From Campylobacterales bacterium (GTDB lineage: Bacteria > Campylobacterota > Campylobacteria > Campylobacterales > Sulfurimonadaceae): a DNA stretch of 64,000 bases. Shown here one piece after another: positions 21,101 through 38,060 of this stretch. The DNA is taken from the NCBI GenBank assembly GCA_016938735.1, contig JAFGUB010000003.1, positions 1 to 64,000 of the forward strand. Direction: 5' to 3'. A model generated the notes under the pieces. That model saw only the letters and a list, made by a program, of their open reading frames with translations. It ran no database searches and was not told the DNA's origin. Numbering within the stretch: position 1 is the stretch's first letter; the number at the start of each line of letters is the position of its first letter. The translations under genes were made by a program, and so were the position numbers.

Positions 21101-22552
21101 ATGCGTTCTTTATTGTTAATGTTGCTTTTTTTGGTACTTATGACGACCGGCAGTGCTGAGCAGATAGCCCCCGTCAATCCTAAATTTATTCAGTGGCAAG
21201 AGAAGCAAAAAATAAAGAGTGAGCTTGTTGTAGACAAAAGCGGTGTGCAGAAACATGCGACCGGTTGGTGTCCTTCACCACTGCCTGAAAAAGTATTTAA
21301 AAGCGGAATGTATAAGAGCAAACGCACCGCTTTACCCGGAAAATTTGATCTCTCCGACCCAAACCTAGACGGTAATCGTAATGACTCGCAGCTAACACCG
21401 GTGACCGATCAGGATACATGTGGCGCATGTTGGGCATTTGCCACCTACGGAGCACATGAGGGCGCGCTGAAGATTGATGGGCTGGGGACACACGATTTTT
21501 CCGAGCAGCACCTGAGCTACAACAACGGTACCGAGTGGGCTTCAGATCCGTGTAGCGGCGGGAATCTGCAGATGAGCATGGCTTATCTGGCGCGCGGAAG
21601 CGGTCCGGTGCGTGAGGCGGATGATCCTTTTAGTATCGGCGGTAGCTCTAATGCAGCCGCTACGCGCGATCGCTATATGGACAACATCATTGAGCTACCC
21701 ATCCGCGACCCGGCAGATAAGATGAACGCTGGGTGGTTTGCGATGATCAAAGAAGCGCTATACACGACACAAAAACCGCTTTATGTCTCGATGCAGGTTG
21801 ATGGCGGTAGCGCGGGAGAGACGGGTGCGAGTGTCTGGGAGAATGCCAGTAAATCTTTCTATTGTAGCAAGACGATAGAAGAGTGCGAATCCAACCATGC
21901 GGTGGTGATTGTTGGCTGGGATGATACCTATGCAGCACAAGGGCAGACGGGAGCTTTTATCATCCGCAACAGTTGGGGATTGACATGGAACAACGTCACT
22001 GACGGGTACTACTATGTGCCCTATACTGATAATAGCCTGGCGATGGACGGTTCTGTCGCATACTTTGAAGATGTGGACGATGCGGCGTTCAATGTCACAA
22101 AAATTTATCAGCATGATGAGTTGCCGGCATCTTATGAATATGGGTCAAATGGGAATGCCCGCTGGGCGGCCAATAAATACACGATCACCGCCAATGAAAG
22201 TATTATCGGAGTTGGCTTTCAGGCTTTATACCCGGATACCGAATACGAAATAAAGTTCTTTACTGCATCGAGCGGTGCTGATCCATCGGTACGTTTTAGT
22301 TCTCCTATCGGATCGACAATCACGGGTCAAATTCCCGTAGCTTTCGGATGGCATACCGTTGTGCTGGATGATCCTCTTGAGGTTCTAAACGGGCAAACCA
22401 TCATTGTTCAGATTAAGCTGCGTAATCCGACAACCTACTCTATCCCAGTGGAAGCCGATATAGCCGGTTATGTCAATGCAGAGTCTTCTTACGCGGAGAG
22501 CTATTATTCTTCAGATGGGATTAATTTTAGTGATATTAAAACACTTTTTTGA
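21101..22552 (+). CDS. Papain-family (C1) cysteine protease, N-terminal part of a frameshifted gene
   Basis: An exported C1 peptidase. After a signal peptide (MRSLLLMLLFLVLMTTGSA) comes the catalytic domain: oxyanion Gln in TPVTDQDTCGACWAFATYG with nucleophile Cys110, the His in SNHAVVIVGWDD (about 266) and the Asn in FIIRNSWG (about 291). From about residue 345 a lectin-like beta domain typical of bacterial C1 peptidases starts (RWAANKYTITANESIIGVGFQ). The frame stops at 22552 in the middle of that domain. Skipping one base in the T6 run at 22545-22550 continues it in the frame that runs to 23324, with GYQDANIALKLL completing the domain. The full product would be about 740 residues. Confidence 0.88.
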   Translation: MRSLLLMLLFLVLMTTGSAEQIAPVNPKFIQWQEKQKIKSELVVDKSGVQKHATGWCPSPLPEKVFKSGMYKSKRTALPGKFDLSDPNLDGNRNDSQLTPVTDQDTCGACWAFATYGAHEGALKIDGLGTHDFSEQHLSYNNGTEWASDPCSGGNLQMSMAYLARGSGPVREADDPFSIGGSSNAAATRDRYMDNIIELPIRDPADKMNAGWFAMIKEALYTTQKPLYVSMQVDGGSAGETGASVWENASKSFYCSKTIEECESNHAVVIVGWDDTYAAQGQTGAFIIRNSWGLTWNNVTDGYYYVPYTDNSLAMDGSVAYFEDVDDAAFNVTKIYQHDELPASYEYGSNGNARWAANKYTITANESIIGVGFQALYPDTEYEIKFFTASSGADPSVRFSSPIGSTITGQIPVAFGWHTVVLDDPLEVLNGQTIIVQIKLRNPTTYSIPVEADIAGYVNAESSYAESYYSSDGINFSDIKTLF

Positions 22553-23324
22553 GGGTTTTGGATATCAAGATGCAAACATCGCTTTAAAGCTTTTAGTCGG
22601 CACCTCCGGTACGGTTGACATCCCCTGCACCTACACGATCAATGACCCATCACAATATTTTACGGCTTCCGGCGGTACTCATAGCGTGACGGTGAGCGCC
22701 TCTCCCGCCAACTGCAACATGGGCAGTTGGAACAGTTCCGAAAACTTATCATGGGCTGCGTTTACAGGTACGACAAGCGGCAGCGGAAACGGCACATGGA
22801 ACGTAGCGTACAGTGTGGATAGCGTTGCCGTGCCGGTCGGTCGTATCGGCGCAGTGACGATTGCGGGATCATCTCATACGCTTTATCAGCGAGGGATTGC
22901 CAATCAGCAGGGCATGGTGTTTGATGAGCGCACAGGCTTTTATTGGCAAGATGAAATCTATACGGTCGAAGAAAACACCGCCTACAATCAGGTACAAGAG
23001 AGTGGCAAGGTGCTCAATTGGGATCACGCACAGGCATACTGCAAGGCGCGTACTCAGGCGGATTTGCTCTGGACGCTACCGACGATCACGCAGCTTTCGG
23101 GCATTGTCGAAACCTCCAATACCCCAACCATCGCTCCGGCATTTCAAAATCCGCAGAGCGGACTGTTTTGGAGCGCGACATCGACAGGTAGCACGACGGC
23201 AAACAGTCTTGATTTTACGGATGGTGATGTGGGAGCAGGCCTCAAAACCTACCCAAATTATGTCCGGTGCGTAGGACGCAAAGGCGGGGTTAATCCTTCG
23301 CTGATCATGTATCTGTTGCAGTGA
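22551..23324 (+). CDS. C-terminal part of the same protease: BACON-like and DUF1566 domains, MYLLQ tail
   Basis: This stretch continues the C1 protease after the T6 frameshift. It has the end of the lectin-like domain, a BACON-like immunoglobulin domain (ITCTYTIND-type strand, FTASGGTHSVTV, NGTWNVAYSVD, GRIGAVTIAGSSHTL), then a DUF1566/Lcl C-terminal domain (GFYWQDEIYTVEEN, AQAYCKARTQADLLWTLPT, GLFWSATSTGS, YVRCVGRKGG). It ends in NPSLIMYLLQ, the tail shared by five exported proteins in this region. An open frame reaches back to 22470, but the natural beginning is the preceding gene. If not joined by frameshifting it has no signal peptide and would not be exported. Confidence 0.8.
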   Translation, partial: EGFGYQDANIALKLLVGTSGTVDIPCTYTINDPSQYFTASGGTHSVTVSASPANCNMGSWNSSENLSWAAFTGTTSGSGNGTWNVAYSVDSVAVPVGRIGAVTIAGSSHTLYQRGIANQQGMVFDERTGFYWQDEIYTVEENTAYNQVQESGKVLNWDHAQAYCKARTQADLLWTLPTITQLSGIVETSNTPTIAPAFQNPQSGLFWSATSTGSTTANSLDFTDGDVGAGLKTYPNYVRCVGRKGGVNPSLIMYLLQ

Positions 23325-23350
23325 CAATCAAATCTACAAACGGAGCGAGT

Positions 23351-25468
23351 ATGAATTTAGTAAAAATAATCATTGGTCTAACCCTATTCAAGGCAGTGTT
23401 GGTAGCGCAGTGGTCTTACCATTTTCCTATTGAAGGAAAGTTCTTTTCCGATATGACCAATCGTTCAATGGCTATTGACGCCACAGGAAAAATACATGTA
23501 GCGTACGGAGAGAAGCATCTCTATTATGCTTATTTCGACGGTACGGTGTGGCATGTTTCGACGATTGATACGGCAGATAATGTGGGGCGATATGCCTCTG
23601 TAGCCGTAGATGATAACGGCAAAGTGCATATCGCCTATTTTGATGCAGCCAACGGAAATCTCAAGTATGCGAGCAACAAAACGGGTACATGGCAGACGAT
23701 GCTTGTCAGCTCTGTAGCGGGGAAATACAGCGTAGTGGCAGTAAAAAGCGGTGCAACTCCCCAAGCAGGGATCGCTTTTTTTGACGAAGATACAGATGAC
23801 TTGAAATACGCCACGATTTCCTATACAAACATGATGACGTCATCTACCGTCGATAGTGTCGGCGATGTCGGTAGTCACCTCTCTTTGGCTATTGACCAAA
23901 ATAACGGCAATCCCCACATCAGCTATTACGATGCAACCAACAAACGATTGAAATACGCGATGAAACCGGGTAGCGGCGCTTGGGATGTACAGATCGCTTA
24001 TGCGCAGCCGTCTGTCGATGTGGGGCGTTTTTCGTCGATAGCGCTGGATAGTTCGGGCTACGCGCATATCAGTTTTAGCGATTTTACCAACAGCCGCCTA
24101 AAGTACATTACCAACAGCGGCGGAAGCTGGAGCAGCGTCGAAACACCGGATACGACGCATAGTGCAGGATGGTACACATCGATCGGCGTCGATGCCAACG
24201 ATAATGTACATGTAAGCTATTACGACTCTGTGAATAAAGACCTCTACTATGTCAATCGTACGACATCGTGGGCAACGCCCTTAGCGGTCGTGACGGATTC
24301 GGACAGCGGGCAGTTTTCGGCTTTGGCGCTGGATGGTACGAATAAGGCGCATATTGTTTTTTTCAAAGATACAACAACCTATGAGACGCTAGGATATGCC
24401 TATCAGTATGATGCATACGGCGGGCCGCTCTGGGCAACTGTGACGCTTGATCAGCAATCCATTGTTTCGGGTAGAAAGATCAAAATCGCCGTCGATGCGC
24501 AGGACTTTTTACATCTGCTCTACTACAATCAGGACATTCATCAGTTGAAATACGCCAATAACCGAACCGGAACGTGGGAGGAAGTCATAGTGTCGTTTGG
24601 GAGCTGTGATTCGGATAATTCCCTTGCTCTTGATGGCAACGGATACGCGCACATTGCCTATGACGATGAATCGATGGAGGCGCTCTATTATATCTCCAAC
24701 AATGATTCCGGAAGCTGGCATCGGCATCAAGTGGCTAGCGGTGCCGGTAGTCCATGGTACTCCAACGACATCGCCGTGGATTCTTTGGGCGTGCCGCATA
24801 TCAGTTTTTTTGATTCCGAAGCCAATGAACTCAAACATGCTATTTATGCGATTGGTGTCGTGTATGTGGAACCGTTCATCGATACGGCAGCAGGAGCTCT
24901 CAATGCGATCGCAATCGACGGCAATGACGGCATTCATATAAGTTACGCCAGCGGTACGCTGCCCAATACCCGTTTGAAATATGCTGTAAAGACGGAATCA
25001 ACATGGAGCAAAAACTTTTTCGATTTGACCCCAGGTGCGGGTTTGTACACCGATATCGTGGCCCGAAATGATGGGAAAGTACATATTGTGTACGGCGTTC
25101 TTAGCGGGGATTTGATCGGAATACGCTATCAGAGCAATGCAAGCGGCGAATGGCTTACCCAAACCATACATACCGACGGTTGGAATCCGGGCATAGCTAT
25201 GGATAGGCAAAACAAGTTACATGTAGCGTACGGCGATGATAGCGAGAAAAGAGCTATGTATGCTACCCAAGCGGGAAGCGGATGGCGCAGCAGCTTTTAT
25301 GAGAATGATGCGCACATTGCAATGACAGGACAGGGCGGCAATATCGCGGTGGATAGCCAAGGCTATCTGTATATTGCCGACGTAGATTTCAACAGTGGTG
25401 GACTGCTCTACGCCAAAGGGAAGCCAACTGTTATGCAGCCGGCTTTGATGATGTATCTATTGCAGTAA
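23351..25468 (+). CDS. Large exported beta-propeller-like repeat protein with MYLLQ tail
   Basis: A 705-residue secreted protein: signal peptide MNLVKIIIGLTLFKAVLVAQ, then roughly twelve repeats of 50-60 residues each built round a core such as DDNGKVHIAYFDAANGNLKYA, DANDNVHVSYYDSVNKDLYY and DRQNKLHVAYGDDSEKRAMYA. The pattern (asp-rich turn, His-[VI]-[AS]-[YF], a leucine-lysine-tyrosine strand) is that of beta-propeller sialidase-like or lectin-type blades. No catalytic residues are recognised. The C-terminus is QPALMMYLLQ. GGAG before the ATG at 23351 decides the start. It begins 27 bases after the protease gene, so cotranscription is likely. Three of the palindrome-core variants (23493, 24207, 25218) fall on repeated His-Val codons. 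Confidence 0.85.
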   Translation: MNLVKIIIGLTLFKAVLVAQWSYHFPIEGKFFSDMTNRSMAIDATGKIHVAYGEKHLYYAYFDGTVWHVSTIDTADNVGRYASVAVDDNGKVHIAYFDAANGNLKYASNKTGTWQTMLVSSVAGKYSVVAVKSGATPQAGIAFFDEDTDDLKYATISYTNMMTSSTVDSVGDVGSHLSLAIDQNNGNPHISYYDATNKRLKYAMKPGSGAWDVQIAYAQPSVDVGRFSSIALDSSGYAHISFSDFTNSRLKYITNSGGSWSSVETPDTTHSAGWYTSIGVDANDNVHVSYYDSVNKDLYYVNRTTSWATPLAVVTDSDSGQFSALALDGTNKAHIVFFKDTTTYETLGYAYQYDAYGGPLWATVTLDQQSIVSGRKIKIAVDAQDFLHLLYYNQDIHQLKYANNRTGTWEEVIVSFGSCDSDNSLALDGNGYAHIAYDDESMEALYYISNNDSGSWHRHQVASGAGSPWYSNDIAVDSLGVPHISFFDSEANELKHAIYAIGVVYVEPFIDTAAGALNAIAIDGNDGIHISYASGTLPNTRLKYAVKTESTWSKNFFDLTPGAGLYTDIVARNDGKVHIVYGVLSGDLIGIRYQSNASGEWLTQTIHTDGWNPGIAMDRQNKLHVAYGDDSEKRAMYATQAGSGWRSSFYENDAHIAMTGQGGNIAVDSQGYLYIADVDFNSGGLLYAKGKPTVMQPALMMYLLQ

Positions 25469-25492
25469 CTTTTAATACAACAAAGGAGCAAA

Positions 25493-26401
25493 ATGAATCG
25501 AGTTCAAAATTATCTCGTACATGTAACGGCTTTGGCCTGTTGGCTTCCAGTGGCACTAAGTGCCGATTTTTATGTGATTCCAGTCGCAAAAAAGACGGAC
25601 AATCTCGTAAGCGTCGCCAAATCGGGAGGGCAGTTTGATGACATCCAAAAAGCCATCGACTCTATCAATGATGCGAGCGCGGAAAAACCCTATACGGTCT
25701 ACATCGGCCCCGGCGTCTATAATGTCACCGCACCTATCACCATGAAGGCCAATGTCTCCCTGATCGGCAGCGGACGCGACACGACGATGCTGCAGGGTTC
25801 TTTCGGCGATTCGGAAATGGGGCCAAGTACGGCGCTGATTGTCGGGGAAGCCAATGCATCGATTGAGCATCTCTCGATCGAAAACAACAACTCAAGCACG
25901 CATGCCTTCGGGGTGTATTGCCGTGGTGTTGCGACGCATCTCAATGATCTCTCGATAGCCGTAGCGCAAGCCGCAGTGAACTGGGGCGCTTATTTTCGGG
26001 ATGCTTCGGAAGTGACGATCAATCGGAGTTCGATCATGGTGCAAGTAGCGCGCACAGGCAATGTAGGTTTTTATTTTTACAATGCCACGGGAAGCGTATC
26101 GCACACTGTTATCAGTGCTAACGGATCGGTTGAAAACAAATGCATAAGCCTTGCTTCTGATAGCAATGTTTCTGTTGCAGATAGCACATTGACGGCGCAA
26201 GGAGGCAGTGAAAATTATGCCTTGTATGGCGCGACGGCTTATGTTACCCATAGTGTGCTCAACGGAGCGTTATTTGGCGGCGGGGCTAGATTGGGATGGT
26301 CCGTATTTGATGGCCACCACTATGTCAACGCGCAATGCTATGAATGTACGAACGCATCCGGTTTCCCGTTGGACCTGAATTGCTCCGGTGACAGCATTTA
26401 G
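25493..26401 (+). CDS. Exported right-handed beta-helix protein (pectinesterase-like), paralog 1
   Basis: A 302-residue secreted protein: signal peptide ending near WLPVALSA, mature start DFYVIPVAKK. The body resembles the pectate lyase/pectinesterase right-handed beta-helix, with DDIQKAIDSINDASAEKPYT, VYIGPGVYNVTAPITMKANVSLIGSG and stacked N/D-rich strands. It ends with a Cys-rich segment (QCYECTN) and lacks the MYLL tail. It shares its first 100 mature residues closely with the next gene, so the two arose by tandem duplication. AAAGGAG precedes the ATG. Catalytic aspartates of pectinesterases are not evident, so enzymatic function is doubtful; a structural or adhesive role is equally possible. 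Confidence 0.82.
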   Translation: MNRVQNYLVHVTALACWLPVALSADFYVIPVAKKTDNLVSVAKSGGQFDDIQKAIDSINDASAEKPYTVYIGPGVYNVTAPITMKANVSLIGSGRDTTMLQGSFGDSEMGPSTALIVGEANASIEHLSIENNNSSTHAFGVYCRGVATHLNDLSIAVAQAAVNWGAYFRDASEVTINRSSIMVQVARTGNVGFYFYNATGSVSHTVISANGSVENKCISLASDSNVSVADSTLTAQGGSENYALYGATAYVTHSVLNGALFGGGARLGWSVFDGHHYVNAQCYECTNASGFPLDLNCSGDSI

Positions 26402-26482
26402 GGCGGCAATGACCAATAATGAAAACAAAACAAACAAAGGAGTTGAAATGAACCAACCATCCAAAAAGTAGCTGGCACTGCT

Positions 26483-27334
26483 ATGCTTGTCGCGCTTATG
26501 TTAACGTCTCCCGTAAGGGCCGATTTTTATGTGATTCCGGTTAGCAAGAAGGTTAAAAATGTCGTGACGGTGGCTAAATCCGGTGGAGATTATACGGACA
26601 TTCAGCAGGCTATCGACTCTATCAGCGGTGCAAGTGAGAGTAACCCTTATTTGATCTATATCGGGCCGGGAACTTACTATCCAGGCAATCAAATTGTTAT
26701 GAAACCGTATGTCAGTATGAGCGGTAGCGGTGAAGGTGTGACCATCGTCACAGGTACCAAGAGCGATGAATCCTCTTTTGGTGCACATTCGATCATCAAA
26801 GGTGCCTCCAATACTACCTTGAGCCATTTAACTGTCCAAAACTTCGATGTTAACAATAACTTCTCTTCTGCTCTTTTTCTCAATGGAATCAACATGCAGG
26901 TAAAGAATGTCTTTGCTAAAGTGATAGGGACGTGTAGTACGAATGCGGCAATTCTCGCAATGGATGATGCAGGGTCAAAATTTGAAAATGTTACGACGGA
27001 AGCGATTGGAATGAATGATGGGAGTAATATTGGTTTATATGTGATTCAAGCCGACAATGGTGTGTATTTGGAAAATGTCACGCTCTATGCCGCGAACGGC
27101 TCAAGCAATTACGGGCTCAAAGGGGATAGTGATGCAAAGATCATCGTCCGAAGAAGTACACTGGATGCAGAAGATTATGGGGTGAATATGACGAGCGGTT
27201 CGGCTTATATCAGTCAATCGAGCATTGTGCGCCGTGTCACCGGTGCTGGAACGATCAAATGCGCCGCATGTGATGACGGTTCGGGCAATGAAGTCGAAGT
27301 TACATGTAACAATGAGGTGAACGGCGGTTTGTAG
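26483..27334 (+). CDS. Exported right-handed beta-helix protein, paralog 2 (start region frameshifted)
   Basis: A 283-residue frame highly similar to the preceding gene: DFYVIPVSKKVKNVVTVAKSGG, DIQQAIDSISGASESNPY, YIGPGTYYPGNQIVMKPYVS. The signal peptide core is present (MLVALMLTSPVRA), but the only ATG with a ribosome site (AAAGGAG) is at 26448. From there translation reads MNQPSKK and stops at TAG. Adding one A to the A5 run at 26463-26467 would join MNQPSKK to VAGTAMLVALML and restore a complete signal peptide. So either the gene is broken, or there is a base-call error, or the internal ATG at 26483 is used. It ends with an exact palindrome encoding Val-Thr-Cys-Asn and no MYLL tail. Confidence 0.78.
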   Translation: MLVALMLTSPVRADFYVIPVSKKVKNVVTVAKSGGDYTDIQQAIDSISGASESNPYLIYIGPGTYYPGNQIVMKPYVSMSGSGEGVTIVTGTKSDESSFGAHSIIKGASNTTLSHLTVQNFDVNNNFSSALFLNGINMQVKNVFAKVIGTCSTNAAILAMDDAGSKFENVTTEAIGMNDGSNIGLYVIQADNGVYLENVTLYAANGSSNYGLKGDSDAKIIVRRSTLDAEDYGVNMTSGSAYISQSSIVRRVTGAGTIKCAACDDGSGNEVEVTCNNEVNGGL

Positions 27335-27337
27335 CGC

Positions 27338-28432
27338 TCAGTTCATCCCCGCCTTCGCAGGTACGAGCGGTCGCTTCCCGATCTGCTCCAAAAAGGCGGT
27401 GGCGTAGCTTCCTTTGGGAAGCGTAAAGCTTGCATGTAACTGTTTTTTCTCCGCTTCGTAGCGAAAGGAGAGGTCGGTTGGCCAGACCCATGCGGCGCGG
27501 CGTTCGCCTTTGAGGCTGGCGAGGTCTTCGTCGTCAAAAGGCTCTTCAAGGTGGCGCGCGTCGCTGCGGGAGCGGATGATATGGCTACCGCAGAGCAGCC
27601 CGGTGGGGACGCTTTGGGCTTTGGCGAACTGTTCGGCCTCTTTGCTCATATCGCCGCAGTAGTAGCCTTTGCCATCAGGGTAGGGGTTCATGCACTCGCC
27701 CAAAAAGAGCTTGAAAAACTGCTTCTGTTTACGCAGCTCCTGCGTGAGCGCGATGGGGTAGGCCAGCATCTTGGCGGCTTTGGCGGCGTCGTGCGCATTG
27801 ATGACCTGACTGATATGCACGCGCGCATCGAGCCAGTTGTTGAAGAGATACGCCTGATAGGCGCTTACCAGCAGCTTCTCTTTGGCCCCTTTGAGCTTCT
27901 TGCCGCTGTGGGCGATCTTTTTGCCCTGCTCGTGGCTTTTGCCGTCTTCGCCGAAACGCTGATAGCCGAAGTAGTTGGGAAATCCGCCTTTTACCATGGC
28001 GTTGGCGGCGCTTTCAAAGGCGGTGGCGGCTTGAGGGGTGACGTGATCGAGGCGGATGACGAAACGGTTGGCCCCCAGTTCGCCCATCTTGATGCCGCGC
28101 TTGTGGTAGGTGCGCTCCAAAATCTCGATACGTTCGGTGATGAGGTTGTCCAAGTGCGCTTCGCACTCGCGCGGCAAGCTCACATACTGAATGGCGGTGG
28201 CGTTTTTGTCTTTAAGTCCGCCGTAACCGATGGCATTTTCGCTTACATGTAAGGCGGATGAGAGGACATGCAGTAGTCGCCAGGTGCTTAAATCCTGCTT
28301 TTTGACCTTGAGAATCAGGTAAGGCCCGCTGCCGTAAAAAGTAAACGGGGGCAGCTCTTCGACGAAAAAGCGCTCGATACTCTGTGCATACTGAAAGAGG
28401 ATGGGAGCATGAGGGTAAGCATAGAGTTTCAT
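27338..28432 (-). CDS. truD: tRNA pseudouridine(13) synthase TruD
   Basis: TruD makes pseudouridine at position 13 of tRNA-Glu. The protein has the epsilon-type TruD features: VSENAIGYGGLKDKNATAIQYVSLP with the catalytic Asp in GLKDKNA, GANRFVIRL, FPNYFGYQRFGEDG and YLFNNWLDARV. I place the start at MKLYAYPHAP (28432), giving 364 residues. The six-codon longer version would place the -10 box inside the gene. TATAAT on the minus strand lies seven bases from the ATG with no Shine-Dalgarno, a leaderless arrangement. It sits between the two halves of the exoprotein region. A palindrome copy at 28244 encodes Leu-His-Val. Confidence 0.94.
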   Translation of the reverse strand: MKLYAYPHAPILFQYAQSIERFFVEELPPFTFYGSGPYLILKVKKQDLSTWRLLHVLSSALHVSENAIGYGGLKDKNATAIQYVSLPRECEAHLDNLITERIEILERTYHKRGIKMGELGANRFVIRLDHVTPQAATAFESAANAMVKGGFPNYFGYQRFGEDGKSHEQGKKIAHSGKKLKGAKEKLLVSAYQAYLFNNWLDARVHISQVINAHDAAKAAKMLAYPIALTQELRKQKQFFKLFLGECMNPYPDGKGYYCGDMSKEAEQFAKAQSVPTGLLCGSHIIRSRSDARHLEEPFDDEDLASLKGERRAAWVWPTDLSFRYEAEKKQLHASFTLPKGSYATAFLEQIGKRPLVPAKAGMN

Positions 28433-28439
28433 GGAGCGA

Positions 28440-28445
28440 ATTATA
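28440..28445 (-). promoter_or_regulatory. -10 box for leaderless truD
   Basis: TATAAT on the minus strand, seven bases from the truD ATG at 28432. It faces TATACT at 28471-28476 for the divergent gene. Confidence 0.5.
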
Positions 28446-28470
28446 GCCAAAGCGATAAGCCGTTTTAACG

Positions 28471-28476
28471 TATACT
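28471..28476 (+). promoter_or_regulatory. -10 box for a leaderless sensor operon
   Basis: TATACT ends six bases before the ATG at 28483. No purine-rich ribosome site is present in the gap, so transcription should begin at or next to the start codon. Confidence 0.5.
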
Positions 28477-28482
28477 TTCGCC

Positions 28483-29586
28483 ATGTCGCTCAACAAAAAA
28501 CTCTTTTTACTGCTTTTCGTCCTGATTGTCGCGGTGCTGGTGGGGTTTATTCTCCGTTTTGAAGGCGAAGTGCGCCGTCAAAGCATCAACGACGTGGGCG
28601 ATCGGCTCTCCGTGGCGTTGCATGCCCAGCTTGAACGCGAAAAAGAGGATGCCTTGCGGATTGCACTTGTGCTTTCTCATAATCCGCTGATCGTGCAGGC
28701 GCTGCGCAAAGAGGAAGAAGATTGGGATTATGCGATCCTTGATGAGGCTATGGAGGGGCTCAACAAGCACACCGCGACGCTGGTGCGTGCGCAGATCATC
28801 ACACCTGAGTATGCGGTATTCGCGCGAAGCTGGGACAACGCTTATGCCGGGATGCCGCTGGAGGATTCGCGTTCCGATCTGGACTACTTCAAAACCAAAA
28901 AAATCCCGCGCGTCAGCATCGAAGTGGGGCGGCGCTTGGGGATCAAGGCGACGGTGCCGCTCTTTGACGGGCGTCAGTTGGCAGGGTTTGTGGAGGTGTT
29001 GCAGTTTTTTGACGCGACAACCGCTTTTTTTCGGGAGTTTGGCGTGGATCTGTATGTGCTGCTCGATGACGCCTACTACAACACCGCCGTGCTGATGCAA
29101 AACAATATGACCATCGGTAGCTACATCGTGGCCAATCGGGGCCACAACGCCGCGCATCTCAAGACGCTTGAACGCGTCGATATGAAGCGTCTGCGCCAAA
29201 ACCGCGCTTTGCGGTTGGAGAACACCGTCTGCTTTTTTGAGCCGATGCACAATGCCGAAGGGAAGCTGCTGGGTGCGTATGTGATGGTGATGGATCAGGA
29301 GCAGATGGAGCTGCTGCGCGCGGTTAACGAAAACCTCTCGATCTTCATCAACTTCTCGCGCCGCGACCTTTACGACATCGTCAAAAAAGAGGCGCTCGAG
29401 GAGCAGATCTACCGCAGCCGCTATGACAAGGCGCTGCTCTATCTCAAAGATACGGTGCCCGAGGAGGATAAGGAGCTCTTTATCCAAGAGGCGCGTGAGA
29501 TGCTGGAGAGTTACAGCAAAGAGGAGCTGATCGCGCTCATTCTCAAACATAAAAACGCCAAAAAGATAGAAGGAGAGATTCGATGA
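28483..29586 (+). CDS. Membrane-anchored Cache-type sensor protein
   Basis: A 367-residue protein with one N-terminal membrane helix (LFLLLFVLIVAVLVGFIL), then an extracytoplasmic double-Cache-like region (about residues 40-270: RAQIITPEYAVFARSWDNAYAGMPLED, GIKATVPLFDGRQLAGFVEVLQFFD, YVLLDDAYYNTAVL). It ends in a charged helical tail without a recognised enzymatic domain. It is the first gene of an operon with an OmpR-family regulator (overlap of four bases) and a histidine kinase. I infer that it detects a ligand and feeds the kinase, or acts as an accessory ligand-binding partner. Topology is uncertain because only one membrane helix is visible. Confidence 0.8.
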   Translation: MSLNKKLFLLLFVLIVAVLVGFILRFEGEVRRQSINDVGDRLSVALHAQLEREKEDALRIALVLSHNPLIVQALRKEEEDWDYAILDEAMEGLNKHTATLVRAQIITPEYAVFARSWDNAYAGMPLEDSRSDLDYFKTKKIPRVSIEVGRRLGIKATVPLFDGRQLAGFVEVLQFFDATTAFFREFGVDLYVLLDDAYYNTAVLMQNNMTIGSYIVANRGHNAAHLKTLERVDMKRLRQNRALRLENTVCFFEPMHNAEGKLLGAYVMVMDQEQMELLRAVNENLSIFINFSRRDLYDIVKKEALEEQIYRSRYDKALLYLKDTVPEEDKELFIQEAREMLESYSKEELIALILKHKNAKKIEGEIR

Positions 29587-30236
29587 GGGTACTGCTGCTC
29601 GAGGATGAGTACACGTTACGTATCAGCGTGAGCGAGTTTCTGGAAGATTTGGGCTATACGGTAGATGGATATGCCAACGGTGATGCGGCTTTTGACGCCG
29701 TTTTTTCGCAAAGCTACGACATTTTGCTGCTCGATGTCAACGTCCCGGGCATGAACGGCTTTGAGCTACTGGGCGCACTGCGCAAAGAGGGCAACCGCAC
29801 CCCCGCCATCTTCATTACCTCCATGACGCAGATGCAGCATCTCCAAGAGGGCTATGAGCGGGGCTGTTGCGACTACATCCGCAAGCCTTTTGATCTGGGC
29901 GAACTGCAACTGCGCATGATGCAGGTGTGCAAGCAGGTGATGCGCAACGACAGCGACCTGCTCACCCTCGCGCCTGAGCTGATCTATGATCTAAAGCAGT
30001 TCACGCTCACCTATCAAGGGGCGCAGATTGCGCTCAGCCGCACCGAAAAAGAGATGTTGGGGATGCTGCTGAAATACCGCAATCAGGTCGTGACGGTGGG
30101 GATGTTTCAAGATGAGATCTGGGGCGAGTATGTCGATCCGGCCAATGTGCGCGTCCAGATCAATAACCTGCGCAAAAAACTCCCCGATGGGGTGATTCAA
30201 AACCGCCGTGGGCTGGGCTACATCCTTGAACGATAA
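29583..30236 (+). CDS. OmpR/PhoB family response regulator
   Basis: A 217-residue two-domain regulator. The receiver has the acidic pocket LLEDE, the phospho-acceptor Asp in ILLLDVNVPGMNGFELL and the lysine in DYIRKPFDLGEL. The C-terminal winged helix contains LSRTEKEMLGMLLKYRNQVV and VRVQINNLRKKLPDGVIQNRRGLGYIL. It overlaps the sensor upstream (ATGA) and the kinase downstream, so it is its cognate regulator. Regulators of this family usually bind direct repeats spaced about 10-11 bases; such repeats occur upstream of soxX at 34043-34070, but linking the two is only a guess. Confidence 0.93.
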   Translation: MRVLLLEDEYTLRISVSEFLEDLGYTVDGYANGDAAFDAVFSQSYDILLLDVNVPGMNGFELLGALRKEGNRTPAIFITSMTQMQHLQEGYERGCCDYIRKPFDLGELQLRMMQVCKQVMRNDSDLLTLAPELIYDLKQFTLTYQGAQIALSRTEKEMLGMLLKYRNQVVTVGMFQDEIWGEYVDPANVRVQINNLRKKLPDGVIQNRRGLGYILER

Positions 30237-31386
30237 CCGCTACGCACTGCTCAATGCGCTGCTCTTTACCCTGCTGGTTTCGATCATTATGCTCGCTCCG
30301 CTTTATGTCTACTTGATCTACTCCAAAACCTTCGTGGAGATCCAAAACGAACTCGAGCTCAAAGCCCACGCCACCACGGTGATTCGTGCGATGGAGTCTT
30401 TTGATGAAGCCAACGAACCGGCCTTTGACTATCCGCGCTTCGCTCAGGTGCAATCGGGGCTCTACGATCTCTACTTCAAGCCCGTTTTTACGCTCATCAC
30501 CTCGCCGCTGCGCCATCAAAGCGAGGGCTACCACATCGACGGCGGCTACGCGTATTACATCCTCTCTTTGCCTAAAGAGCGCTACTTCGGCGCGGAGTAT
30601 CTCATCGTGGGCAACACGCTTTCGTATGCGAAGGTGTACCAAAAGACGCTGATTATCCTGCTGCTGATCGTCTTGCTGCTCTTTACCCTGTCGTTTCTCT
30701 TTCTCAACCGCTTCGCGCTGCCCTTTAAAAAACTCAACGCCCGGCTTGACAAGTTTATGAAAGATTCGATGCACGAGATCAATACGCCGCTCAGCATCAT
30801 TAACGTCAACATCGATCTGTACAACCGCAAATTCGAACCCAACAAATACTTTCAGCGCATCCGCGCCGCCGCCAAAACGCTCTCAAGTATCTACGACGAC
30901 ATGGACTATCTGATCAAAAACAGCCGCCTTTCGTTTCAAAGCGAGCCGATTGCGCTTGATGCATTTTTAAAAGAGCGGGTAGCCTATTTCGATGAGGTGG
31001 CCGCGATGAAAGAGGTGACGTTGGTGATGACGCACTGTGACGTACTCTCCATTCGTTTTAATCCGACGCAGTTGCAGCGTATTATCGACAATAATCTCTC
31101 CAACGCCATCAAATACTCTCACCCTCAAAGCCGCGTTGAGATTGCTTTGCGGCGCCTGGGTGAGGGGTGCGAGATGTGCTTCAAAGATTATGGTGTGGGG
31201 ATGAAACATCCCGATCAGATATTCGAGCGTTACTACCGAGAAAGCGAGAAGGTGGGCGGATTCGGGATCGGTCTGAATATCGTCAAATCGATTATCGACA
31301 GCCATGGAATTCGCTTACATGTAAGCTCCGTTTTGGGCGAGGGGTCGGAATTTATCTACCTTTTTCCAAGAGAATTAATGATTTAA
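30208..31386 (+). CDS. Sensor histidine kinase
   Basis: A 392-residue inner-membrane kinase with two membrane helices (LLNALLFTLLVSIIMLAPLYV and TLIILLLIVLLLFTLSFLFL) flanking a periplasmic region of about 130 residues. It has the HisKA phospho-acceptor in DSMHEINTPLSIINV and the ATPase motifs IIDNNLSNAIKYSHP, KDYGVGMKHP and GGFGIGLNIVKSIID. The start is uncertain: GTG at 30208 or TTG at 30226, both inside the end of the regulator gene. It forms one operon with the Cache sensor and the OmpR-type regulator. Palindrome copy 31315 encodes Leu-His-Val-Ser near the C-terminus. Confidence 0.92.
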   Translation: MGWATSLNDNRYALLNALLFTLLVSIIMLAPLYVYLIYSKTFVEIQNELELKAHATTVIRAMESFDEANEPAFDYPRFAQVQSGLYDLYFKPVFTLITSPLRHQSEGYHIDGGYAYYILSLPKERYFGAEYLIVGNTLSYAKVYQKTLIILLLIVLLLFTLSFLFLNRFALPFKKLNARLDKFMKDSMHEINTPLSIINVNIDLYNRKFEPNKYFQRIRAAAKTLSSIYDDMDYLIKNSRLSFQSEPIALDAFLKERVAYFDEVAAMKEVTLVMTHCDVLSIRFNPTQLQRIIDNNLSNAIKYSHPQSRVEIALRRLGEGCEMCFKDYGVGMKHPDQIFERYYRESEKVGGFGIGLNIVKSIIDSHGIRLHVSSVLGEGSEFIYLFPRELMI

Positions 31387-31434
31387 AGTGGGCGATATTT
31401 ACCCTAACAACTTCAAAAGCCTATCGGTGCTATA

Positions 31435-31456
31435 TTTGAGATAGTTCTATCTCAAA
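31435..31456 (+). promoter_or_regulatory. Perfect 10-2-10 inverted repeat before an exported beta-helix gene
   Basis: TTTGAGATAG, a two-base TT spacer, and CTATCTCAAA form a perfect inverted repeat. Its last three bases run into the AAAGGAG ribosome site of the gene starting at 31467, and a possible -10 (TATATT) overlaps its left end. It could be a repressor operator or an RNA hairpin that hides the ribosome site. Confidence 0.6.
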
Positions 31457-31466
31457 GGAGTCCCGA

Positions 31467-32675
31467 ATGGATGGTTTTACGGCGCATAAAGTGCTTGTGT
31501 TGACGGCTTTGTCGCTGCCGCTTTCGGCGGCGATCTTTACGGTCAATGTCACGACCGATTCGATAGATAGTAATACGGCTGACGGGCTTTGCTTGGACGC
31601 TGCGGGCAAATGCTCCCTGCGCGTGGCGGTGATGCAGGCCAATGCTTTGGCAGGTGTCGATACGATCAATCTTGCTGCGGCGACCTACCGCTTGAGCATC
31701 ACGGGTACGGATAACGCTTCGACTCAGGGCGATCTGGACATCACCGAAGCGGTGACGATACAGAGCGCGGGGATGAACAAAAGCATCATCGACGCGCAGC
31801 AGGTGGATCGGGTGTTTCATTTGATCGACATCGCTTCGGGTGAGACGGTGACGATGAACGATCTGACGATTCAAAACGGTATGGTATCTACGGGCAATTA
31901 TGGTGGCGCAGGGATTCTGCACTGGCCGTCGAATGTTACGCTTGATCTCAAACGCGTCGCTTTTTTAGGCAACGCCGTCGGCGGTATATTAAGCGATGAC
32001 AACGGCGGAGCCCTCAAGAATTTGTCAACGGCCTATGTGACCGAGTGCCTTTTTCAAGGCAACAGTGCTGATCGCGGCGGCGCGATCTACTCCAATAGCA
32101 ATTTGATCGTTAACCGAAGTGCTTTTTTTGAAAACGGTGCGAAAGCGGGCGGCGCGTTGCTGAATTACGGATCGGTCAGTATCGTCAATTCTACGTTTAG
32201 CCGCAACAGCGCTACCAACAACGGCGGTGCTATCACCAACAGGGAATCTATGTCGATTTACTTTTGCACCATCGCGGACAACAGTGCGCCTACCGGGGGT
32301 GGGATCAATAATGTCCTTGATTCCAACATTTCGATTGAAAGTTCCATCATCGCATATCATGGCGATGCGCATAATTGCGAAGGGGTGATCAAATCATTGG
32401 GCCACAATATGGAAGATGCCAATACCTGCACCTTCAATCAATCCGGCGACCTAATCAATACCGATCCGCAACTCGATCTACTGGGCTTTTACGGCGGAGC
32501 CACGCCGACGCATCGGCTAAAGCCCACTTCCCCGGCCATCAACGCAGGGTCGCTTAATACCTGCTTTCCCATCGACCAGCGTGGCGTCAAACGCCCGTGG
32601 GGGCGGGGTTATGATATCGGCGCGTACGAGTGGGTAGGGCCCAACCCCTCCGTGCTCATGTATCTGCTCAACTAG
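31467..32675 (+). CDS. Exported right-handed beta-helix protein with MYLLN tail
   Basis: A 402-residue secreted protein. The signal peptide covers roughly the first 22 residues (VLTALSLPLSA). The start of the mature region has the CSLRVAVMQANALAGVDTI motif typical of large secreted parallel beta-helix adhesins and choice-of-anchor proteins. Next come coils rich in GGAI and NNGGAITN turns (SADRGGAIYSNSNLIVNRS, GTLLNYG-like) and the closing segment SPAINAGSLNTC and RPWGRGYDIGAYEW that ends such proteins. The last ten residues are NPSVLMYLLN, the tail shared with four other proteins here. The start is decided by AAAGGAG directly upstream. Confidence 0.85.
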   Translation: MDGFTAHKVLVLTALSLPLSAAIFTVNVTTDSIDSNTADGLCLDAAGKCSLRVAVMQANALAGVDTINLAAATYRLSITGTDNASTQGDLDITEAVTIQSAGMNKSIIDAQQVDRVFHLIDIASGETVTMNDLTIQNGMVSTGNYGGAGILHWPSNVTLDLKRVAFLGNAVGGILSDDNGGALKNLSTAYVTECLFQGNSADRGGAIYSNSNLIVNRSAFFENGAKAGGALLNYGSVSIVNSTFSRNSATNNGGAITNRESMSIYFCTIADNSAPTGGGINNVLDSNISIESSIIAYHGDAHNCEGVIKSLGHNMEDANTCTFNQSGDLINTDPQLDLLGFYGGATPTHRLKPTSPAINAGSLNTCFPIDQRGVKRPWGRGYDIGAYEWVGPNPSVLMYLLN

Positions 32676-32677
32676 CC

Positions 32678-33096
32678 ATGAAAACGCTACTTTGGGTGCT
32701 TGTGCTTGCAAGCGGCTTGATGGGGGCGTTTGTCCGCGACGATGCGCTGTGAATGTTTCGGCAATTTGGTCGGATGCGCGTATCTACTGCGAGAAGCTTG
32801 AATTGGCGGGTTTTAAGGACTGGTATCTGGCCGACATCAACACGCTTTTGACCACCGTCGATCCCGCTTCGCCCACACCCGCCCCGCTCCTGCGCTCCGC
32901 GCAGAGCGCCTTTTTGAATGTTGCACACGGGTTGTATTGGTCTGCGACGCCTGTAGAGGGGCATCCGGGTAATGCGTGGGTGGTGGACTACGTCTACAAC
33001 GACCCGCGATGGGTCGATCAAAACACTACCAACTACATCCGCTGCGTTCGCAAAAAAGGGATTGCTCCGGCGGTGATTTTATATCTGCTATATTGA
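32678..33096 (+). pseudogene. Broken DUF1566 (Lcl-like) exported protein with MYLLY-type tail
   Basis: An ATG at 32678 opens a signal peptide (MKTLLWVLVLASGLMGAF) followed by VRDDAL and a TGA at 32750. The continuation lies in another frame: NVSAIWSDARIYCEKLELAGFKDWYLADINTL, GLYWSATPVEG, NYIRCVRKKG, which is the C-terminal part of a DUF1566 domain, ending in APAVILYLLY. One missing base around the TGA would join both parts. The usual N-terminal half of the domain (the GLMWQD-like segment) is also absent, so the gene looks like a decayed remnant and not just a misread. It follows the beta-helix gene by two bases. Confidence 0.7.
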
Positions 33097-33142
33097 GGGT
33101 GATTACATGTAAGCCTCAGCCGATCTTTTTAGAGAATTGCTT

Positions 33143-33148
33143 TACAAT
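33143..33148 (+). promoter_or_regulatory. -10 box for the trypsin-like protease gene
   Basis: TACAAT lies 23 bases before the ATG at 33172, with AAAGGAGAGG as ribosome site between. A TTACATGTAA copy stands upstream at 33103-33112. Confidence 0.45.
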
Positions 33149-33171
33149 GACGGGGAATAAAGGAGAGGTGT

Positions 33172-33978
33172 ATGAAAACGATTTGCTTGCTGGTAGTGTG
33201 CACTGTGGTTTCTTTTGGTGCTGGACAGCCGCGTATTATAAATGGCACACAGGTAATGTCAAGTGATAATCAGTGGGATGCAATTGTTTCAATACGGACG
33301 AATGCGTTCGCTTATTGTGGCGGTTCTTTAATTTCTCCTACATGGGTTTTGACTGCTGCACACTGTATAGAAGCATATATTCCGACAAAAATTGGATACG
33401 GCGGTTATGCATTATGGAGTATGTCAGAAAGAAGTGTTAAAAACTATTTTGTTCATCCGCAATATGATGGCAATATGATTGATAACGATATCGCTTTGAT
33501 TGAGCTTTATACAGCTATTGAGGATGTTGAACCGATGATTCTTGATAGGAATGATTTGCTTGCTGCAGGCACACAAACTTGGGTAGCAGGATGGGGGGAT
33601 ACGAATATTGATCCAGATGAAGCTACTTACCCTGAAAATTTGATGGAAGTGCTTGTACCATTGGTTGAATTTGATACATGCAACCAAGCTTATGGCTATG
33701 GCTTAACGAGCAATATGATTTGTGCCGAATATATGAGTGGCGGTTATGATAGTTGTCAGGGAGATAGTGGTGGGCCATTGGCTGTTCAGAAAAACAATCA
33801 TGTACTGCAGCTGGGCATTGTAAGTTTTGGAATGGATTGTGCAGAGAGTGGTTATCCCGGCGTCTATACCAAAGTCCAAAACTATATCGACTGGATCGAA
33901 AGCTACACGGGGCCTTTGGCGCAACCTAGTGGAACACAGGGGCTTAATCCCGCCGTATTGATGTACCTGCTCAACTAA
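33172..33978 (+). CDS. Secreted trypsin-like (S1A) serine protease with MYLLN tail
   Basis: A 268-residue secreted serine protease. The signal peptide is about 19 residues, followed by an Arg-Ile-Ile-Asn-Gly sequence that resembles the activation site of trypsinogen-type zymogens. The complete triad is visible: His64 in VLTAAHC, Asp106 in DNDIALIEL, Ser199 in SCQGDSGGPLAV. The primary-specificity position before it (YDSCQGD) carries Asp, as in trypsin. Base composition is clearly AT-richer than most neighbours, suggesting acquisition by transfer. It ends in NPAVLMYLLN. Classical S1A proteases are uncommon in Campylobacterota. Confidence 0.92.
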   Translation: MKTICLLVVCTVVSFGAGQPRIINGTQVMSSDNQWDAIVSIRTNAFAYCGGSLISPTWVLTAAHCIEAYIPTKIGYGGYALWSMSERSVKNYFVHPQYDGNMIDNDIALIELYTAIEDVEPMILDRNDLLAAGTQTWVAGWGDTNIDPDEATYPENLMEVLVPLVEFDTCNQAYGYGLTSNMICAEYMSGGYDSCQGDSGGPLAVQKNNHVLQLGIVSFGMDCAESGYPGVYTKVQNYIDWIESYTGPLAQPSGTQGLNPAVLMYLLN

Positions 33979-36284: not shown

Positions 36285-36743
36285 ATGGAAGTATCAAGAA
36301 GAGACTTTCTCCACCTCGCGGCGGCGCTGGGGCTGGTGAGTGTCACCAACGGTTTTGCAACCACGATCAGCAGCAAAAATCCTGCCGACATCACCTATAA
36401 AGACATTATGGATTTTAAAGCGACGGGCAACGTCACCTTGCTGCACATCTGTGACATGCACGCGCACATCAAGCCGATGTATTGGCGCGAACCCTCGACG
36501 CTGATTTCGGCGCCGGAGCTCAACGGTACGCCGGGATTCTTGTGCGGCGAAGCGTTTTCCAAGTACTACGGATTGGAGCCCAGCTCGCTCGATGCCTACT
36601 TCGACACCCACATGGATTTTGAAGCCTTGGCGAAGAAGTTTGGCAAAATGGGCGGAATCGCCCACATGAAAACGATGGTCGATCATATCAAGAAAGCGCG
36701 TGGAGCGGAGAAGGTGCTCTTCATGGATTCGGGCGATACCTAG
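36285..36743 (+). CDS. soxB: SoxB N-terminal part, ended by an in-frame amber codon
   Basis: SoxB is the periplasmic di-manganese thiosulfohydrolase that releases sulfate from SoxY. This part starts with a twin-arginine signal (SRRDFLHLAAALG) and has the first metal-binding motif, ICDMHAHIKPMYW. It ends LFMDSGDT followed by TAG at codon 153, inside the GDTxQG metal motif where a tryptophan (TGG) is expected. The same frame then continues without interruption to 38060 as normal SoxB. A single G-to-A change explains it. TAG is used as an ordinary stop in other genes of the window, so global recoding is unlikely. Confidence 0.9.
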   Translation: MEVSRRDFLHLAAALGLVSVTNGFATTISSKNPADITYKDIMDFKATGNVTLLHICDMHAHIKPMYWREPSTLISAPELNGTPGFLCGEAFSKYYGLEPSSLDAYFDTHMDFEALAKKFGKMGGIAHMKTMVDHIKKARGAEKVLFMDSGDT

Positions 36744-36785
36744 CAGGGTACGGGCGTCGCGCTCAAAAGCCGTGGCGAAGCGATT

Positions 36786-38060
36786 GTGAAGGCGCAAAAC
36801 TACCTCGGCATCGACGTGATGGTCGGACACTGGGAGTTCACCTACGGCAAAGAGCGCGTCAAAGAGCTCATCGAGATGCTTGATGCCAAGTTCATCTCCC
36901 AAAACATCGTCGGTGACGATCCCTTTGCGGAGGAGTACGAAGAGCTGATTTTCGAGCCTTACACCATCGAAGAGCGCGGCGGTGCCAAAATCGGCATCAT
37001 CGGTCAGTCCTTCCCCTTCACCTCTACGGCGAACCCCAAAGAGTTCACGCAGGGCTGGAGCTTCGGCTTGCGGATGGATACGCTCCAAGAGTATGTCAAC
37101 GAGCTGCGCGATGAGCACAAGGTGGATTGTGTCGTGGTGCTCTCGCATGACGGATTTAGCGTCGATCAGGAGGTAGCCAAGAAGGTGAGCGGTATCGACT
37201 TTATCCTCAGCGGCCACACGCATGATCCCTCGCCCAAACCGATCGTGATCAATGGTTGCGTCATCGTGATTGCGGGCAGCCACGGTAAATATATCGGACG
37301 TTTGGACATTGACGCAAGTAAAGGCAAAGTACACGGCTATGAGTACAAGCTTATTCCCGTCGCTTCGAATATCATCCCCGCCGACCCTGAGGGCGTGAAG
37401 CTGGTGGATGCGCTCTATGCGCCCTATGCCAAAGAGATGAACGAAGTGCTGGGCAAGACCAAGGGGCTGCTTTATAAGCGCGACACCTTCTTCTCAACCT
37501 TTGATCAGCTCATCAACGATGCGGTGATGGACGAGATGAAGTGTGACATTAGTTTTACGCCGGGCTACCGCTGGGGCACCACGGTGCTGGCGGGTGAAGA
37601 GATTTTGATGGACAACGTCTATGAGATGTGCGGCGTGACCTACCCCAACGTCTACACCTTCGAGCTTAAGGGTGAGCATATCGCCAAGCTGCTTGAAGAT
37701 ATTGCGGACAACGTCTTTAACGACAATCCGCTCTATCGGCAAGGCGGCGATATGAGCCGCTTAGGTGGCGTTAGCTATGATATAACCGTCAGCAATGCAC
37801 CCGGTAAGCGGATCACCAACCTAATGGTCGGCGGCAGAGCGCTCGATCCAAAAAAGGTCTACATCGTCTCCTCATGGGGCGGCAACCTGCAAAATGCGGG
37901 GGCCAACCTCCAAGAGAAGAAGATCCGTCCGGTCTACGACGTGGTGCGCGACTACATCAAGCGCAAAAAGGTGGTCGATGTGAGCAATGAAAGCAATGTG
38001 CGCATTCTCGACTATGATTGCGGCTGCCCGAGTGTAGGCGCCAAAAGCTGCAAAGCATAA
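36786..38060 (+). CDS. soxB: SoxB C-terminal part, in the same frame after the amber codon
   Basis: The frame resumes directly after the TAG at 36741 (QGTGVALKSRGEAIVK, then MKAQNYLG). It holds the rest of the SoxB metallophosphoesterase domain: VMVGHWEFTYG, the metal histidines in VVLSHDGFSVDQE and ILSGHTHDPSP, and the C-terminal 5'-nucleotidase-like domain with FTPGYRWGTTVL and YRQGGDMSRLGG. Read as one gene, 36285-38060 encodes 591 residues, a usual SoxB length. As a separate product from 36786 it would lack the Tat signal and half of the metal site, so it would be inactive unless the amber codon is read through. Confidence 0.9.
   Translation: MKAQNYLGIDVMVGHWEFTYGKERVKELIEMLDAKFISQNIVGDDPFAEEYEELIFEPYTIEERGGAKIGIIGQSFPFTSTANPKEFTQGWSFGLRMDTLQEYVNELRDEHKVDCVVVLSHDGFSVDQEVAKKVSGIDFILSGHTHDPSPKPIVINGCVIVIAGSHGKYIGRLDIDASKGKVHGYEYKLIPVASNIIPADPEGVKLVDALYAPYAKEMNEVLGKTKGLLYKRDTFFSTFDQLINDAVMDEMKCDISFTPGYRWGTTVLAGEEILMDNVYEMCGVTYPNVYTFELKGEHIAKLLEDIADNVFNDNPLYRQGGDMSRLGGVSYDITVSNAPGKRITNLMVGGRALDPKKVYIVSSWGGNLQNAGANLQEKKIRPVYDVVRDYIKRKKVVDVSNESNVRILDYDCGCPSVGAKSCKA

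Follow-up and report, generated by a model that had tools for sequence, protein, structure and literature searches.

We describe a ten-residue C-terminal tail, with the rough consensus Asn-Pro-Ala-Leu-Leu-Met-Tyr-Leu-Leu-Asn (e.g., NPALLMYLLN), that closes five genes in the genome of a Campylobacterales bacterium of the family Sulfurimonadaceae (GenBank assembly GCA_016938735.1). All five lie in the stretch of DNA analyzed here, referred to as the window (positions 1 to 64,000 of contig JAFGUB010000003.1, 64 kb). The tail is real, specific, and rare, being limited to a few sulfur-oxidizing lineages of the Campylobacterota. Judging from its sequence context, it probably serves to sort or anchor the exported proteins that bear it, as a type of C-terminal tag for which we found no description; a literature search likewise returned no description of the tail itself, and we name it MYLL-CTERM.

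Five tails within 11 kb

The tails, each listed with its stop codon and the evidence for it, are as follows.

23292..23324, forward strand: tail NPSLIMYLLQ and stop (sequence, genome pattern scan, codon comparison)
25436..25468, forward strand: tail QPALMMYLLQ and stop (sequence, genome pattern scan, codon comparison)
32643..32675, forward strand: tail NPSVLMYLLN and stop (sequence, genome pattern scan, codon comparison)
33064..33096, forward strand: tail APAVILYLLY and stop, a variant on a frame-broken gene (sequence, relaxed pattern)
33946..33978, forward strand: tail NPAVLMYLLN and stop (sequence, genome pattern scan, codon comparison)

An earlier note on this DNA, made from the letters alone, had placed the five tails at these same ends (stops 23324, 25468, 32675, 33096, and 33978). 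Their consensus in the window is [NQA]P[AS][LV][ILM][ML]YLL[NQY]-stop. When the genome (2,854,195 bases, 62 contigs) was scanned at the DNA level for P-x-phi-phi-[LMV]-Y-[LF]-[LF]-x-stop, four matches were obtained, all inside the window, with about 0.01 matches per genome expected by chance according to our own estimate; the same pattern reversed, as a control, gave none in the 2.85 Mb. A relaxed pattern added only APAVILYLLY, bringing the genome total to five copies, all of which fall inside 11 kb of the window.

Identity among the five tails is 0.55, 0.96, and 0.37 at codon positions 1, 2, and 3, respectively, and comparison of the five tail regions revealed no alignable DNA upstream; downstream, matches are limited to short palindrome-containing stretches. 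Given this codon-position pattern and the lack of alignable upstream DNA, selection acts on the peptide, and recent copying of DNA does not account for the tails, in line with the protein-level constraint claimed in the earlier note.

Distribution across genomes

Searched through the whole genome and other Campylobacterota, the tail is found on 39 open reading frames (ORFs) in 11 genomes, with real matches confined to the phylum. Since most of the positive genomes are metagenome bins (incomplete metagenome-assembled genomes [MAGs]), counts per genome should be read as minima, and breaks affect some of the ORFs. Among 200 genomes of the family (genomes and loci of our survey carry G and L numbers, respectively), four have more than one true tail (G000 and, in its genus, G005; G002; and G065) and G012 has a single one, the other matches being short frames of at most 75 residues without a signal peptide. 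Among 397 good-quality genomes of the phylum, the tail is present in the window's genome only.

A stricter pattern applied to 84,980 species genomes returned 34 stretches, with approximately 17 expected by chance (our estimate). The Campylobacterota matches, from records named Sulfurovum, Sulfuricurvum, Helicobacteraceae, and Epsilonproteobacteria, are the ends of long exported proteins except for a few frame-broken ORFs, and every match outside the phylum is a random frame of 9 to 41 amino acids. The viral contigs scanned yielded nothing but one 55-amino-acid frame, met three times. A looser pattern without the proline gave mostly noise, together with the extra variants APIIMYLL[ND] and TPV[LI][MI]YLLD. 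In other genomes, the tails are spread over several separate contigs.

Anatomy of the tail

A residue table built from the 39 tails of the 11 genomes shows P at position -9 in 34, A or S (P in 4) at -8, aliphatic residues at -7 and -6, M at -5 in 32, Y at -4 in 38, and L at both -3 and -2 in all 39; the last residue is N (22 tails), Q (7), D (6), or H (2), and hence one of these polar residues in 37/39. The register is fixed, with exactly one residue after YLL before the stop in 39/39 tails; one looser tail, in G002, ends in YYLLMF, with two residues after LL. Across the fetched loci the motif stands at the C terminus only, without any internal copy. A loose look-alike, PIISYLLD (FVPIISYLLDSES), was seen in a GH18 chitinase-like protein (L081, 214-1968) just after the signal peptide and not at the end.

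The tail forms no transmembrane helix, having just 6 to 7 hydrophobic residues before the stop, none of the 39 contains K or R, and neither a cysteine nor LPxTG is present. Asn or Ser before Pro is a classical helix N-cap. AlphaFold modeling of an FG-GAP propeller from five sequences (pTM 0.82) predicts a detached short helix for the tail, at residues 466 to 473, beyond the last blade strand. MYLL is also the sole run of more than two invariant columns in the five-propeller alignment used for this model, in which the bodies are 20 to 28% identical, apart from one 76% near-copy.

Exported proteins of many folds carry the tail

The genes that carry the tail in the window are the following.

21101..22552, forward strand: front of a frame-split gene, with signal peptide, papain-like peptidase (PF00112), and Lectin_like (PF18560) (domain matches; intact relative at L101 8052-9929)
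22470..23324, forward strand: remainder of that gene, read in a different frame, with Lcl_C (PF07603) and then the tail (domain match)
23351..25468, forward strand: exported beta-propeller with tail, SBBP-like repeats, and a partial PDIAV_lipo match below the cut-off (domain searches)
31467..32675, forward strand: exported beta-helix with choice_anch_Q (NF041518) at residues 333-388, then the tail (domain searches)
32678..33096, forward strand: frame-broken Lcl_C gene with tail, having a signal-peptide-like start (32678-32752) in one frame and Lcl_C plus tail in another
33172..33978, forward strand: exported trypsin-like protease (PF00089, residues 22-242, the entire domain), a linker, and the tail at residues 259-268

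Two of these genes are frame-broken. For the first, a frameshift had been proposed in the earlier note, and a Sulfurovum MAG indeed holds the papain-like (C1) domain, Lcl_C, and the tail in one unbroken 625-residue gene (L101 8052-9929). The gene ending at 33096 is regarded as frame-broken because a signal-peptide-like start, MKTLLWVLVLASGLMGAF..., lies upstream at 32678-32752 in a frame other than that of Lcl_C and terminates at a stop. The description of all five proteins as unrelated and as bearing signal peptides therefore needs amendment: the tails do end differing folds, yet these amount to four body types, with the first and fourth proteins both ending in Lcl_C (DUF1566), and for the ORF ending at 33096, its own frame encodes no signal peptide. 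Farther along, soxB (36285-38060) is broken by an in-frame TAG at a position where a same-genus relative (L080) has Trp; with two frame-broken genes nearby, consensus errors in the window contig are possible.

Over all genomes, at least 10 different body types bear the tail, which is thus modular. They comprise trypsin-like proteases, papain-like proteases with Lcl_C, and Lcl_C with or without DUF4214; beta-propellers of the FG-GAP, DUF5122, and SBBP-like types; and choice_anch_Q beta-helices, leucine-rich repeats, DUF285, bacterial Ig/cadherin-like, and TSP3 proteins. Where this can be checked, the domain before the tail is complete or nearly so (trypsin, 22-242 of 268 residues; Lcl_C, 17-120 of 134; choice_anch_Q, 333-388 of 402), so the tail is not the last strand of one shared domain. 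It coincides with export signals: by a crude prediction rule, 25/28 tailed ORFs have a signal peptide, compared with 43/218 other ORFs of the same loci (Fisher p = 4e-13), one of the positives, the frame-broken window ORF 22464, resting on a false N terminus. The three tailed ORFs without a predicted signal peptide are broken or misassembled, and each intact tailed ORF looks exported. The enrichment among signal-peptide proteins for which the earlier note had proposed a test is present, and the tail was not met on cytoplasmic proteins.

A choice of anchor on choice_anch_Q proteins

The strongest functional argument, and positive evidence for a sorting or anchoring role, comes from the position of the tail on proteins with the choice_anch_Q domain (NF041518), which is present in 12/200 family genomes and is matched by the window beta-helix at 78.4 bits (cut-off, 25). 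Five tailed beta-helix proteins have this domain directly ahead of the tail. In tail-bearing genomes the MYLL tail follows 14 to 17 residues past the DIGAYE signature of the domain, and G002 also has the YYLLMF variant there. In G009, by comparison, choice_anch_Q is followed by a choice_anch_U domain and then by a VPLP...LLGFRRKE end; no sorting model scored over its cut-off on this end, which we take to be a VPLPA/PEP-CTERM type anchor. Since the same domain is followed by known types of anchor in relatives, the MYLL tail occupies the place of sorting signals.

A second alternative, less securely supported than the VPLPA/RRK-type anchor, is the sorting domain of the type IX secretion system (T9SS). 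On one contig of G085, proteins carry T9SS type A-like sorting domains at their ends, one scoring clearly above the cut-off and another just under it, and other choice_anch_Q proteins end without such a domain. The contig concerned (C14; L180, L183, and L186) could be misbinned; it belongs to a genome placed in this Campylobacterota family, and no SprA was found in that genome.

Neighboring genes

Four further genes adjoin the tail genes in the window.

25493..26401, forward strand: exported "DFYVIPV" beta-helix without tail and with a C-terminal Cys motif, a partner or co-acquired cargo
26483..27334, forward strand: second "DFYVIPV" beta-helix without tail
29583..30236, forward strand: response regulator (two-component genes recur near tails in four other genomes)
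30208..31386, forward strand: histidine kinase

The two beta-helix paralogs lack the tail, as the earlier note had pointed out. Tail-less exported DFYVIPV beta-helices adjoin tail genes in G000, G002, G005, and G065, and the family is present in exactly four of the 200 family genomes, namely those with four or more tails; among the 397 genomes of the phylum it occurs in the window's genome only. These proteins (25493-27334; L119, L120, L121, L122, and L124) have in common a Cys pattern near the C terminus and a motif that directly follows the signal peptide; this N-terminal motif is also found on a different body (L119, 8516-8953).

Two-component genes flank tail genes in five genomes. An orthologous histidine kinase/response regulator pair stands beside them in G545, G065, and G002, and in G549 it adjoins a frame of 24 codons that closes with the tail (loci L096, L163, L088, and L092). 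Orthology does not extend to the window pair, so a regulatory link between tail and two-component system is suggestive only. Glycosyltransferase, capsule, or polysaccharide-export genes are located near tails in a small number of loci (L088, L096, and L097/L098).

A separate feature of this DNA is the palindrome TTACATGTAA, the commonest 10-mer of the window, with 28 sites (e.g., at 33103, 33986, and 34000) against 0.01 expected; its 30 one-mismatch neighbors average 0.37 copies. It is frequent elsewhere in the same genome (L119 and L120) and in loci of G005 and G002, and was not found in the G065 loci. The sequence resembles HIP1-like highly iterated palindromes, or else a signal for uptake or methylation, and a literature search gave no description of it in these bacteria.

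How the tail might work

Exported cargo, modularity, and the exchange of anchors on choice_anch_Q proteins all support the sorting or anchoring signal suggested in the earlier note, its function being read from this pattern. We can envisage the following mechanism. The N-terminal signal peptide would export the protein; in the periplasm, its last ten residues would form a detached two-turn hydrophobic helix, capped by Asn/Ser-Pro, which ends exactly one polar residue past Tyr-Leu-Leu. A candidate receptor would read helix and free C terminus together and deliver the protein to, or hold it at, the outer membrane, the cell surface, or the extracellular matrix. In a few lineages of the Campylobacterota, many secreted beta-proteins and proteases that are unrelated to one another would have acquired such a tag. 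More specifically, and only tentatively, the tail may belong to a KDEL-like envelope address system, in which an uncleaved helix with a free C terminus and a dedicated receptor direct many unrelated exported proteins to one destination, working without a membrane helix, lipid, or sortase chemistry.

Several observations weigh against this proposal. Several genomes have no more than one or two tails, fewer than a dedicated system would lead one to expect, though most of them are incomplete MAGs. The tail lacks any chemical handle of known anchors (transmembrane helix, basic cluster, Cys, or LPxTG). Genome searches that covered the distribution of the tail, GspK, SprA, and DFYVIPV, and no search for exosortase, rhombosortase, CPBP, or sortase, revealed no receptor or enzyme common to every tail-bearing genome, and the seven genomes that have one to three tails lack the DFYVIPV family. 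The helix comes from a single prediction, with a pLDDT of about 60 for the tail; a second model, made with AlphaFold for the window beta-helix, has a C terminus too uncertain to be used.

An alternative that we consider unlikely, yet the best of those that remain, is that of a docking tail: after secretion, the helix would plug into a groove on a shared scaffold, such as the DFYVIPV beta-helix proteins, which lack the tail, or a surface protein bound to polysaccharide, and so assemble an extracellular complex. The proximity of DFYVIPV genes to tail genes in four genomes, their restriction to the four multi-tail genomes of the 200, and the polysaccharide genes near tails in L088, L096, and L097 would fit this view. 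However, the polysaccharide neighbors are few and may reflect background, and DFYVIPV, which the genomes having one to three tails lack, cannot be a universal receptor and was rejected as a universal tail partner. For the same reason it would be co-acquired cargo or a scaffold and not the reader of the tag. A partner family co-occurring only with the tail, as the earlier note had imagined, was not recovered for all tail-bearing genomes in these searches, DFYVIPV fitting the four multi-tail ones alone.

We give still less credence to the tail being recognized by a PDZ/Prc-type protease or quality-control factor of the periplasm, which would tune the stability of secreted proteins. PDZ-type and tail-specific proteases read hydrophobic free C termini, and the hydrophobic end and fixed register to the free C terminus agree with this; such proteases, however, are near-universal while the tail is confined to a few lineages, the last residue is polar (N/Q/D/H in 37/39), unlike that of usual PDZ ligands, and the tail replaces known anchors on choice_anch_Q proteins. 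It is highly improbable that a single DNA segment spread recently, by gene conversion or as a cassette end, with a functionless tail. All five genome copies do lie within 11 kb, but third codon positions are 37% identical versus 96% for second positions, a pattern on which cassette or gene conversion was rejected; there is no shared upstream DNA, and elsewhere the tails stand on separate contigs and are kept while bodies diverge to 20 to 28%. That the tails arose by chance, or are simply where one shared domain naturally ends, has a negligible probability: two of the five window proteins share Lcl_C, but about 0.01 matches are expected per genome with none for the reversed pattern, and tails follow complete trypsin, Lcl_C, choice_anch_Q, and many other domains.

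Comparison with known sorting systems

The LPXTG, PEP-, GlyGly-, and MYXO-CTERM signals are defined by a transmembrane helix and a basic cluster (PMC3237569, PMC11980579). The tail lacks both defining parts. It does have two traits of these tripartite signals, an N-terminal signal peptide on the cargo and a lineage-restricted suffix on several nonhomologous proteins per genome; the earlier note had likened it to PEP-CTERM and GlyGly-CTERM in concept only, which agrees with the anatomy of the 39 tails. No NCBIfam or Pfam C-terminal sorting model matched when full proteins and C-terminal peptides were searched.

With the GlyGly-CTERM/rhombosortase system (PMC3237569) the tail shares a short C-terminal homology on several unrelated signal-peptide proteins per genome, lineage restriction, and trypsin-like cargo, and the window beta-helix body matches rhombotarget A below the cut-off (E 2.2e-8); it differs in lacking the Gly motif, transmembrane helix, and basic cluster, in its length of only ten residues, and in its fixed free C terminus. 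PEP-CTERM and VPLPA-CTERM/exosortase (PMC1569441) are likewise modular suffixes of diverse exported proteins; some loci of the tail lie near polysaccharide genes, and a VPLPA...RRK-type suffix takes the tail's place on choice_anch_Q proteins within the same bacterial family. The tail has no PEP/VPLPA motif or basic cluster, however, and since it has no transmembrane helix, it would offer an exosortase no part that could be held in the membrane. MYXO-CTERM/myxosortase (PMC11980579) is similar by analogy, as a C-terminal tag placing exported proteins at the surface, and differs by its invariant cysteine, transmembrane helix, and Arg-rich end.

The T9SS type A sorting domain (TIGR04183) is also C-terminal, swappable among unrelated cargo, and found after choice_anch_Q in one related genome, but it is an Ig-like domain of about 70 to 80 residues. 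TIGR04183 gave no match on tailed proteins, and a SprA search, which had no positive control, gave none above the cut-off in the 11 tail-bearing genomes. In these genomes PF03934 (GspK) matches only frames of 82 to 93 amino acids, ComEA-like rather than full GspK; this is an unspecific helix-hairpin-helix model that also matches in genomes without a type II secretion system, so its matches speak neither for nor against such a system. Choice-of-anchor Q (NF041518) is not the tail itself, being a domain that precedes whichever anchor a species uses.

The eukaryotic C-terminal address tags KDEL and PTS1 are short and are read together with the free carboxylate in a fixed register. The tail resembles them in brevity and in register to the free end, and differs in compartment, sequence, and organism. 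Whereas the short C-terminal signals compared here need a membrane helix and a basic end, and T9SS a whole domain, a ten-residue tag with a fixed free end would imply that it is read in another way, by a receptor of the Campylobacterota envelope that is yet to be discovered. The tail could moreover serve as a sequence label by which to recognize proteins that sulfur oxidizers of caves and vents secrete or display at their surface.

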